Shown here one piece after another: positions 11,491 through 20,803 of a stretch of DNA of 33,874 bases. Below the pieces are notes generated by a model. The model did not search any database, was not told where the DNA came from, and saw nothing but the letters and a program-made list of their open reading frames with translations. Origin of the DNA: Nanobdellota archaeon (GTDB lineage: Archaea > Nanobdellota > Nanobdellia > Parvarchaeales > Parvarchaeaceae). Each line of letters begins with the position of its first letter. Position 1 is the first letter of the stretch. The translations under genes and the position numbers were made by a program. The stretch is from the NCBI GenBank assembly GCA_021850635.1, contig JAJZLM010000004.1, positions 1-33,874 of the forward strand, given 5' to 3'.

Positions 11491-12324
11491 TCAACGCAAT
11501 CTGCACTCGAATGCATCCAGCTTTCCTATGCGTTCACAACGCATTTTTGTCTGCGCATACATGGATTCTATAAGTTGTCCTCCTATCACAGATGCAAAGA
11601 CTATTGAAGCTGGCTTATACTGAATTACATTCCTAAGAACAACCATGGCGGTTACTTTATCGACTACGATGTCATCTACTACTAATATGTTCTTACCAGT
11701 AATTAAATCAGCTGCATATGAATACGAAGAGGAGGACGGCAACATAATATTCAAATCATTCCTGGTATGATAAGAATACCTTATAGGCAATATTTTACTA
11801 TCTGGAAAAGCGTAGCCAGCTACAAAGGCTGGCAAAAATCCTCCGTCTGCTATACATATGACTGTGTCAAAATTATAACCAGTATTCTTTAGTTTATTCA
11901 TATTTGACCCGAAGTTATCTATGGTACTGTAATGACAGGCATATAGGTTTGGTTCTTGTGCCACATCCTCATAATCTATCGTCTTCAACAATTCTTTATA
12001 AGCTGCCCTAATAGTTTCTCTAGCTGGGATAAAAACATCGTCTTTCCTTTCTAAAAATGACTCTGCCGCAACCCTACCAATCGATATCAAATCTTCAAGA
12101 GCTTTGCTCTGTTCAGGCCACCTGTCTTTAGTCCAATTTTTGTCGACCAACGCATCAAAATACATCTGTGATATCTTGCACACATCCAGAAGCCGCTCGT
12201 AATAAAAGCAAGATAACCTACTTCCACCTGCTTTCTCCAGAGCGCTATCATCAGTAGTTTTAAAATTGTTTATTTGCAATAATATCTCCCGCAAGTGTTT
12301 GCCATTAGAGTTTTTGTATCCCAT
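11491..12324 (-). CDS. Phosphoribosyltransferase-fold protein with helical N-terminal extension
   Basis: DTVICIADGGFLPAFVAGYAF; KNILVVDDIVVDKVTAMVVLRNV (degenerate PRPP loop). Confidence 0.7.
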   Translation of the reverse strand: MGYKNSNGKHLREILLQINNFKTTDDSALEKAGGSRLSCFYYERLLDVCKISQMYFDALVDKNWTKDRWPEQSKALEDLISIGRVAAESFLERKDDVFIPARETIRAAYKELLKTIDYEDVAQEPNLYACHYSTIDNFGSNMNKLKNTGYNFDTVICIADGGFLPAFVAGYAFPDSKILPIRYSYHTRNDLNIMLPSSSSYSYAADLITGKNILVVDDIVVDKVTAMVVLRNVIQYKPASIVFASVIGGQLIESMYAQTKMRCERIGKLDAFECRLR

Positions 12325-17609: not shown

Positions 17610-19547
17610 TCATCTTCTTGCTTTACTCTTCCTATGGACTGTCCTTCTATTTTTGCGCTTGATGGACTTATTTTGCGTAACTACTATTTTGATATTTTTG
17701 CCGAGCCTGCCCTTCTTTACCATTTTGAAGAGCTTATATTCGTATATAAACCCGCCTATCGCTATACCTAATACTACCCCGAGCAATAAGTACAGTATAT
17801 ATTCGCTGTTGAAGGGAAGGGTAGTGCTTATCGGCTGAAACAAGGCTGGACTCTGCACAAACGATACATTTGCCAATGAAGCTTCAAAATCTGTATACAC
17901 TCTAGAATAGGATTCGTATTCTATTAGGAGTGGTGTGGATGTATTCGCGAAATTCTCTCCAAACTGATAATAGCTTATCCCTAAGAACGGTGTTACGCCA
18001 GCGCTCTCGGCTCTATCTATGTTCCTTAGAGCAGAGTCAATTATTTCATTAGTTATAACTGGAACAGAGCTATTCAGGACTATGCTGTTTTCCTCTATTA
18101 CTAGTTCAGCAGATGCGATGCTTTCCAGCGAATCGAATATAGAAGAGATGTAATTTCCTTGCTCCTGGCGATACTGAGCCTTGTTGAAAAAATCTTGCAT
18201 GCTTGTTGATGCACCGGATGAAGCGGCATTAGGGTTTAACAGACCCGCATAGTTAATGTACGATGACGCTTTGTAAAGGTAATATTGGCTCAAGTTGTAA
18301 TAAGACGCTTCTGAGAAATTAGAGTCCCCTCTTGGTAGAAGTGAAAGCCAGAATATAGACGATACTCTCTTGACTTCAGATAGCGCATAAAAGTACGCAG
18401 CCGTAGGAATATTCGACTGTGCGCTTGAACTCGCGTTATCTAGAAATGTTGATGCTTGTGCCAACCTGTCTATTGCTATGAACTTGAGGTCCAATGTGCT
18501 CATATTAGTAAGGTAATCTTCAGTCACAGAGTGGTATGTCTGTGATATTGATGCGTTCTCTGATGCTATAAGGCTGTCCATATATGCAACGGGGTCGCTC
18601 TGCGTATTCAATTCCTCGAGCGTTCTCGCATAGATAAGGTCGGTTGCGGACGTGTTTACTATGTAACTAGCTGCAGTGTAATAATTGCCTTGAGAGACCA
18701 AAACTTCTTCTTGTTGCATCGTCGCCAACGCTGAGTTTATAAGACTGTTTATGGACGAGTTCGAGCTAGTCTTGGACGGCAGCGAATCATACACAGTCTG
18801 CTGATACACATTGAATTCTTGGTAGGTATTCTGCATAAGTTTATTGTAAAAAGGGGTGGTTATGTTATAATTCAATTCTGGTGTTATATTGTATCCTGTG
18901 AAATACTGATAAGCCAGATAAAGGGAGTCCACTGGCACAGTAGCCATTCCGTGAGCTGCATCATACTCTATAGCTTGTTGTGTCATATTATCTGAGGACA
19001 ACGGCGGCTCGCCTACAGGGTATAAGAAAAGCGTCATGCCTTGATTTGCAGCTGCTTCACTTTTAGCAGCTACGTCCCCTACCAGACCGATGCTGCCATC
19101 TGGATTCGCTGTGCCGGTCATTGCAACTTTCGGATTAAGAGGGTGTCCTGTTAATATGGACATCGCTGCTACAGCAAAAGCTGCTCCCGCGCTCGGACCG
19201 CTTATCTGAGGCGATTCTGACTGAATGTAATAATAAAAATTGTAATTATCACAGTTTACATTAACTAATTCACACGCAACTAATGCAGATACTACGGCCT
19301 GTGCTTGTGTATCAGTCCCAGTAAGAGGTGTAGAACCAAGAAAAACTTTACCACTACCCTGTGTCACAACCAGAGAAAGTTTGGCAGGTACCCCTATGAC
19401 GGAGCCATTAGGCTGCGTGGATACCCCGAATATGTACAAACTGGTGCTCCCTACCTGCTGTATAGTGGCAGCACCTGAGATATGCAGTCCAAATAATCCT
19501 ATGAATGCTATAGCAAGGATAACGGACACTACAATGTTCTTATACAT
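17610..19547 (-). CDS. Secreted/membrane-anchored Lon-like (S16 family) serine protease without AAA domain
   Basis: N-term signal, ESPQISGPSAGAAFAVAAMSILTG (Ser) and GLVGDVAAKSEAAANQG (Lys) dyad motifs; C-terminal TM LYLLLGVVLGIAIGGFIYEY then basic tail. Confidence 0.88.
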   Translation of the reverse strand: MYKNIVVSVILAIAFIGLFGLHISGAATIQQVGSTSLYIFGVSTQPNGSVIGVPAKLSLVVTQGSGKVFLGSTPLTGTDTQAQAVVSALVACELVNVNCDNYNFYYYIQSESPQISGPSAGAAFAVAAMSILTGHPLNPKVAMTGTANPDGSIGLVGDVAAKSEAAANQGMTLFLYPVGEPPLSSDNMTQQAIEYDAAHGMATVPVDSLYLAYQYFTGYNITPELNYNITTPFYNKLMQNTYQEFNVYQQTVYDSLPSKTSSNSSINSLINSALATMQQEEVLVSQGNYYTAASYIVNTSATDLIYARTLEELNTQSDPVAYMDSLIASENASISQTYHSVTEDYLTNMSTLDLKFIAIDRLAQASTFLDNASSSAQSNIPTAAYFYALSEVKRVSSIFWLSLLPRGDSNFSEASYYNLSQYYLYKASSYINYAGLLNPNAASSGASTSMQDFFNKAQYRQEQGNYISSIFDSLESIASAELVIEENSIVLNSSVPVITNEIIDSALRNIDRAESAGVTPFLGISYYQFGENFANTSTPLLIEYESYSRVYTDFEASLANVSFVQSPALFQPISTTLPFNSEYILYLLLGVVLGIAIGGFIYEYKLFKMVKKGRLGKNIKIVVTQNKSIKRKNRRTVHRKSKARR

Positions 19548-19592: not shown

Positions 19593-19859
19593 TTACTCGA
19601 AATCACTAGACTCTAACTTATTTTTGAAGGATTGCAGAGCACCTATAAGCTCACCCAGTTCGTCGAAACTCAAGGATATACTTGACTTTATCCTTTCTTC
19701 AGATTTACCGTCTTTATCTATGGTATATCCTTTCTTTAGGCTGATAAAAGTTATCTCTTTCTCTCCTTCTTTTCCTCTTGTTAGGTTTATTTTTAGGAAG
19801 TTGTTGGATCCTTGTCGCGTGACCTTTTCAGACGGCTCGTCTAAGTCTTTGAATTCCAT
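19593..19859 (-). CDS. Small hypothetical protein; possibly PC4-like nucleic-acid-binding
   Basis: 88 aa; FLKINLTRGKEGEKEITFISLKKGYTIDKDG...SISLSFDELGELIGALQSFKNKL strand-helix pattern. Confidence 0.6.
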   Translation of the reverse strand: MEFKDLDEPSEKVTRQGSNNFLKINLTRGKEGEKEITFISLKKGYTIDKDGKSEERIKSSISLSFDELGELIGALQSFKNKLESSDFE

Positions 19860-19924: not shown

Positions 19925-20749
19925 TTATTTTTCTAACAAAGTCTTTGCTCTTTCCACATCGTCTTTAGTTTTTATGTGTATCCACTGGCCGTTGTAAACG
20001 TAGCCATACAATACCCCATCCTTCGCTAACATCGGTAACAGATCCTTCCGTATATCCCACGCCATCTCACCAGGCGGGATGTACTTGAATATTGTCTTAT
20101 CAAATAAGAAAATCGAGGTAGGCACCAATTTCGAAGGGATAGGGGAAGGAAGCCTCTCGTATTCTACTATCTTGTTACCTTTTATATCGAGTTTGTCATT
20201 GACTTCTTCTGCATGCATTGCTGACGCTGATACTGCCATCGATGCTATGCTATTGTGGGCAGAATGGAACCTTACCATATCTTTGAGGTCTACGTCAAAG
20301 ACTACGTCTCCTGGCACAAAAAGAGTGGTGGAACCTACATATTGCTTGACTCTTTCAAGAGCGCGCGCGCTGCCCTTCATGACGTTGTCGTCTACGTACT
20401 TGATGTCTGCGCCGTATCCTTCTCCGTTCCTTAAGATTTGAAACACTTCTTTCAGAAGAGAGGTCTGACCAGATATGAGTATGTTCCTAAATCCATTCAT
20501 TCTAAGCTTTGTAACAGTATTTTCTATTATAGTGTTATTCCCTATTTTAATTAGAGGCCTGTACTGGTCAGTCCCGTTCAAAGTAAAGTCTCCGCCGCAC
20601 AATATTATGGCTGTGTGCTGTTTTTCAAAGAATTTTCTAAGTATGTCCTCCACTGCATCGCTTTTGGACCTGTACGTTATATTGTCGACAATGGAGTCTA
20701 ACTTCGCTAGAACGTCTGCTTCTATCGTAAAGGAAGCTCTTGCTTTCAT
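19925..20749 (-). CDS. Ribbon-helix-helix domain fused to sugar-nucleotidyltransferase (NTP_transferase family)
   Basis: N-term RASFTIEADVLAKLDSIVDNITYRSKSDAVEDILRKFFEK (RHH); then IILCGGDFTLNGTDQYRPLIKIGNNTIIENTVTKLRMNGFRNILI...PGDVVFDVDL. Confidence 0.83.
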   Translation of the reverse strand: MKARASFTIEADVLAKLDSIVDNITYRSKSDAVEDILRKFFEKQHTAIILCGGDFTLNGTDQYRPLIKIGNNTIIENTVTKLRMNGFRNILISGQTSLLKEVFQILRNGEGYGADIKYVDDNVMKGSARALERVKQYVGSTTLFVPGDVVFDVDLKDMVRFHSAHNSIASMAVSASAMHAEEVNDKLDIKGNKIVEYERLPSPIPSKLVPTSIFLFDKTIFKYIPPGEMAWDIRKDLLPMLAKDGVLYGYVYNGQWIHIKTKDDVERAKTLLEK

Positions 20750-20768: not shown

Positions 20769-20803
20769 CGTAGTATTTAAAATAACCGATTTTTATAACT
20801 ACG
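20769..20803. repeat. Imperfect inverted repeat (CGTAGT ... ACTACG) in promoter region of the RHH-nucleotidyltransferase gene
   Basis: CGTAGT at 20769-20774 and ACTACG at 20798-20803; the extended 11-mers match at 8/11. Confidence 0.4.

Follow-up and report, generated by a model that had tools for sequence, protein, structure and literature searches.

A ribbon-helix-helix domain fused to a degenerate nucleotidyltransferase: a candidate transcription regulator made from a former enzyme in DPANN archaea

What is the function of a protein that joins a DNA-binding domain to an enzyme fold whose catalytic signature has been altered? Here we address this question for a gene of a Nanobdellota archaeon (GCA_021850635.1, contig C11; genome of 0.57 Mb, about 90% complete) that lies in a stretch of 33,874 nucleotides, hereafter the window. 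The uninterrupted minus-strand open reading frame (ORF) 20749-19925 starts with ATG and encodes a protein of 274 amino acids (the window protein), composed of an N-terminal NikR-like ribbon-helix-helix (RHH) domain and a nucleotidyltransferase (NT) domain of the RmlA/MurU fold (Table 1). The original prediction had proposed an RHH N terminus of about 40 residues and an NTP-transferase domain in a single ORF, together with an altered signature and altered or lost catalysis, and had suggested a one-protein sugar-nucleotide regulator with the NT domain as sensor. The first three of these proposals hold, and the fourth is likely. As set out below, the gene probably encodes a transcription regulator made from a former enzyme, with the NT pocket as its most likely ligand sensor.

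The RHH domain was identified by homology. Residues 4-43 of the single sequence match the RHH of NikR (NCBIfam NikR, 1.1e-4), and a profile of 13 orthologous N termini (residues 1-44) searched against all PDB sequences retrieved NikR alone at E ≤ 0.01 (2bj1, 3.5e-6; 1q5v, 1.1e-4). Pfam RHH_1 gave no match with the window protein alone and matched 8 of 22 orthologues. Residues K2, R4, S6, D18, D22, S28, S30, A32, V33 and E34 are invariant among the orthologues, and both R4-S6-T8 and S28-K29-S30 are kept in all 22 proteins of the genus. The helices predicted by AF2 (residues 11-20 and 31-41) are placed as in RHH proteins; this part of the model has low pLDDT, as expected when an obligate dimer is folded as a monomer. 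The N terminus is a β-α-α domain of about 45 amino acids homologous to known RHH proteins. In such proteins the first β-strand contacts DNA, and DNA binding by the window protein is likely.

The remainder of the protein (residues 60-269) matches NTP_transferase (PF00483, 1.3e-13), above the curated cut-off, and belongs to this fold family. The mean pLDDT of the model is 81, with the NT core mostly around 90, and Foldseek aligned the model with RmlA (3hl3, TM 0.81) and MurU (4y7v, TM 0.86; both target-normalised); GMPPA and GMPPB were also among the structural and sequence matches of the NT domain. The altered signature, LCGGDF...YRPL in the window protein, is common to all orthologues, reading LCGG[DEHN]F---...YRPL in 22 of 22 members. 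The GxGTRLRP loop, the EKP motif and the second metal Asp are gone in all 22, whereas GD is retained; in the window protein the lysine after the loop (the PKP lysine) is replaced by Arg. The window protein thus lacks the loop and PKP lysine of an active sugar-1-phosphate nucleotidyltransferase and has lost its EKP motif and second Asp, and catalysis is likely lost. What persists in the family is an invariant Asp148 and the YIPPG and GxW motifs.

Table 1 Positions of the gene, its domains and its promoter element within the window
Feature	Positions	Strand	Basis
RHH-pseudonucleotidyltransferase gene, 274 aa	19925..20749	(-)	ORF, domain matches and orthologues
Ribbon-helix-helix domain, residues 1-43	20621..20749	(-)	NikR profile matches, invariant residues, AF2 helices
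Presumed DNA-contacting β-strand, residues 2-9 (R4-S6-T8)	20723..20746	(-)	Aligned to NikR RFSIS / RVTIT
NT-fold domain, residues 46-270	19940..20614	(-)	PF00483 and Foldseek
Degenerate nucleotide-binding signature LCGGDFTLNGTDQYRPL, residues 50-66 (intact: LAGGxGTRLRPxTYExPKPM)	20552..20602	(-)	Alignment, 87 RHH-NT proteins
Retained first metal-site motif GD, residues 147-148	20306..20311	(-)	D148 invariant
EKP sugar-phosphate motif position, now YERLP, residues 197-201	20147..20161	(-)	Alignment, 87 RHH-NT proteins
Second metal Asp position, now GQWIHIK, residues 254-260	19970..19990	(-)	Alignment, 87 RHH-NT proteins
TATA box TTTTAAATA, about 25-33 nt before ATG (leaderless promoter)	20774..20782	(-)	Sequence; clearly shared with closest orthologue L003

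Of the 27 same-genus genomes, about 23 have a full-length orthologue that starts at residue 1 (61-85% identity); those that carry the gene are recorded as metagenome-assembled genomes of Candidatus Parvarchaeota / Nanoarchaeota (DPANN). This conservation excludes a fusion by chance or by assembly error. When 371 genomes of the phylum were searched with a profile, 190 gave matches; among the matches listed, nearly all of the strong ones span position 1-3 to about 268, and RHH-NT fusions are thus widespread there. Judged by sequence, the fusion is common in DPANN archaea, in active-looking and degenerate forms, and is not peculiar to the window genome. We found no description of an RHH + NT architecture in the open-access papers searched. 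Gene order is also largely kept in the genus, with PpiC, the window gene, an 88-aa protein, a Lon-like protein, GlyRS, NnrD and TrxR on one side and PsmB and CPSF on the other. The loss of catalytic residues might suggest a functionless, decaying relic, a reading that is largely excluded and to which we give almost no credence, given the absence of frameshifts, the kept synteny and the strong conservation in the genus. We also rejected an origin from a mobile element or phage, the plasmid and phage matches listed having included no RHH fusion, and a role in a defence system, for which PADLOC gave no match.

Three other genes of the window, all on the minus strand, have features of their own. 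The 88-aa protein (19593-19859), which adjoins the window gene, is 67-89% identical across the genus, has no Pfam match and has a TATA-like box of its own some 25 nt upstream of the start codon. The Lon_C-domain protein (17610-19547) has an N-terminal signal-like segment and a C-terminal membrane segment and, at 40-71% identity, is less conserved than most neighbours. A protein with a phosphoribosyltransferase domain and a long extension at its N terminus (11491-12324) is convergent with an S3Ae-like gene.

An alignment of 87 RHH-NT proteins separates a type I group from a degenerate group. Type I proteins have an intact active site (LAGGxGTRLRPxTYExPKPM, NGD and EKP, with the C-terminal Asp in most) and share with Escherichia coli NikR the residues R-T-T at the aligned positions of the strand. 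Degenerate proteins of type II read GGPEEKLRISD-EYRPTA, QKP and EKEIHIH, often with the Lys of EKP kept. In a tree of the NT domains, which is unrooted and has long branches, the degenerate proteins, including the window protein, form one side of a 100/99 branch; support for type I is 99/95, RHH-bearing and RHH-less NT proteins are separated at 99/96, and the window family groups with L050 and L101-L104 at modest support (88/67). The simplest reading would be a single deep loss of catalysis, with a few later losses within type I (L128, L129, L031 and L124). The two domains also differ in constraint: the RHH is the better conserved domain in all 210 pairs of the window family (83% versus 67% for the NT domain) and in 290 of 378 type II pairs (63% versus 56%), whereas type I shows the reverse, with the RHH ahead in only 7 of 120 pairs (43% versus 56%), all of these being counts of pairs that share ancestry and are not independent. 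Such a shift is consistent with type I proteins being enzymes and the degenerate ones being regulators. In one genome, an RHH-NT protein from which the entire glycine loop is deleted (L037, 3702-4475, minus strand) is encoded beside a type I copy, and the operator TCTTACCTTTATCCTACTTTGTAGG abuts its ATG.

Conserved operators precede the genes of both types. At type I genes of the window's genus, AGTATGA-N5-TCATACT lies behind the TATA box with its end some 6 nt ahead of the start codon, a position observed in several genus genomes; 19 sites of the type I operator were counted in 55 genomes, against 2 for the reversed control. Type I genes of other families are followed by phosphomannomutase/phosphoglucomutase, some with a SIS isomerase gene ahead. 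Two related genomes also have a palindrome, GTATTACTTAGTAATAC, directly at the initiation codon of a phosphoglycerate-kinase-like ORF (L187 and L194, 1501-1517; G047 and G034), possibly a further target of type I RHH-NT proteins. A whole active site together with an operator at its own start codon, as the type I relatives have by sequence, is what characterizes a trigger enzyme like trifunctional PutA. Could the window protein likewise be an enzyme, of unusual catalysis, that doubles as an autogenous RHH repressor? Asp148 persists, as does Arg or Lys at the Lys position, but the active site is lost (glycine-rich loop, EKP and second Asp in 22 of 22), the domain constraint is reversed and a conserved operator is missing, and we consider this very improbable.

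The type II operator is linked to nucleotide-sugar genes. Across the whole RHH-NT set, 26 of 40 loci have the RHH-NT gene in divergent orientation to a UDP-glucose/GDP-mannose dehydrogenase (UGDH) gene, 23 of these 26 pairs being without an intervening ORF (hand count), and in most cases genes for a canonical nucleotidyltransferase and an epimerase come after UGDH; within the 40 loci examined, type II genes are divergent from this operon in most. Their intergenic region, TTTAAATATCTTACC.tTATCCTACtTTAT.CgATaa.tTTATATA, contains direct repeats of 11 bp, flanked by two TATA boxes that face outward. The candidate operator ATCTTACN4ATCCTACNTTA has 26 exact sites across 279 genomes, compared with 0 for the reversed pattern. 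Of these, 23 lie beside an RHH-NT gene, and another two have only UGDH as a neighbour; for one of these two, the RHH-NT gene of the genome sits on a separate contig, as would suit regulation in trans. Of 31 upstream regions, 24 scored at least 17/22, a level attained by 10 of 3100 shuffles and by 2 of 284 control ORFs; the 22-position consensus was derived from those same upstream sequences, and the genome-wide site count is thus the cleaner test. One exact site (L163, 1501-1522; G114:C11) lies by a TATA-like box distant from RHH-NT or UGDH genes and may mark an extra regulon member. Among the relatives of the window family, L104 adjoins the UGDH operon and L050 adjoins UGDH.

These operators also bear on a different role for the NT domain. 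GMPPA, which pairs with GMPPB as a regulatory subunit, offers a precedent for a non-catalytic regulatory subunit of an active nucleotidyltransferase, in which case the RHH would mainly be a dimerisation module. The GMPPA/GMPPB matches, the one other NTP_transferase protein kept in the window's genome (on C17) and the active-looking NT gene near type II genes are consistent with such a subunit. However, the presumed DNA-facing residues R4-S6-T8, invariant in the genus, are not needed for dimerisation alone, and conserved operators precede type I and type II genes; we regard a subunit role as quite unlikely.

For the family as a whole, the idea of a one-protein, sugar-nucleotide-responsive regulator is well supported, because relatives have conserved operators next to nucleotide-sugar operons. 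For the window member, whose promoter has no conserved operator and which adjoins no sugar genes, we infer it. The promoter shares a TATA box clearly, and no operator, with that of the 85% identical orthologue L003, and autoregulation of the window family was rejected since upstream regions across 23 genomes clearly share the TATA box only. Exact half-sites are weakly enriched upstream of the family (9 of 23 versus 3.1 expected, and 0-2 in control gene sets), several of the nine coming from close relatives. We likewise rejected action of the family through the type I operator or through GTATTA-N5-TAATAC: neither GTATGA-N5-TCATAC nor GTATTA-N5-TAATAC has an exact site in the window's genome, and sites elsewhere gave no consistent regulon. 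The divergent UGDH operon with ATCTTAC-N4-ATCCTAC is absent from this genome, in which UGDH was not found, although at about 90% completeness such absences are soft; what the window protein has in common with type II appears to be the degenerate clade only.

Counted against a regulator were thus the missing conserved operator, the housekeeping neighbours (PpiC, the 88-aa protein, the Lon-like protein and GlyRS), the UGDH gene not found and the low-confidence RHH model. The neighbourhood, the failure to find a UGDH gene and the heavily eroded pocket would suit a DNA-binding regulator in which the dead NT domain has ceased to sense sugars, serving as a scaffold or responding to another ligand, and which controls housekeeping or other genes. 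We consider this unlikely, as the NT domain still shows 67% mean identity, the invariant Asp148 and the YIPPG/GxW motifs. The window gene's own promoter may be the wrong target for the DNA-binding test that the original prediction proposed.

In the mechanism that we favour, a regulator with a sensing NT pocket, the N-terminal RHH dimer would bind short operator half-sites beside archaeal TATA boxes and thereby block or tune initiation. The C-terminal NT domain would no longer catalyse; its pocket, most likely retained, would sense a nucleotide, sugar phosphate or nucleotide sugar and alter DNA binding in response. For type II, the target would be the promoter shared with the UGDH/nucleotidyltransferase/epimerase operon.

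Several known systems resemble parts of this arrangement. Trifunctional PutA, an RHH with proline dehydrogenase and P5C dehydrogenase, is an autogenous repressor of its pathway genes (PMC5293562). It shares the N-terminal RHH on a metabolic enzyme and is resembled by the type I proteins, but its enzyme is unrelated and catalytically active, whereas the window protein is predicted to be inactive. The best mechanistic parallel is BtAraR of the NrtR family, in which a winged helix-turn-helix is joined to a Nudix domain without catalytic residues that senses L-arabinose (PMC4666351): a dead enzyme domain acts as ligand sensor on a DNA-binding domain, although there the helix-turn-helix is C-terminal and the fold is Nudix, compared with the N-terminal RHH and NT fold here. 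NikR, the closest RHH by sequence, carries a nickel-binding domain and reads GTATGA-N16-TCATAC (PMC7055735); type I operators have the same GTATGA/TCATAC half-site but N5 apart rather than N16, and the sensor domains are unrelated. RmlA, MurU and GDP-mannose pyrophosphorylase (PF00483) match the C-terminal domain in fold and sequence, and differ from the window protein in that the latter has lost the catalytic signature and gained an N-terminal RHH.

We lean, if only slightly, towards a broader account in which these proteins form a previously undescribed transcription-factor family of DPANN archaea: an RHH captured an NT domain, catalysis was lost once at a deep branch, the domain became a nucleotide-sugar sensor controlling nucleotide-sugar supply, and a derived Parvarchaeota branch was re-targeted to new genes. 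To our knowledge, very little is known about gene regulation and surface-sugar supply in these reduced, host-dependent archaea. With an operator that can be read from sequence, a predicted class of ligand and a catalytic relative nearby in the tree, sugar-nucleotide control would become open to culture-free testing in vitro, and the RHH-NT family would illustrate clearly how an enzyme becomes a transcription factor.
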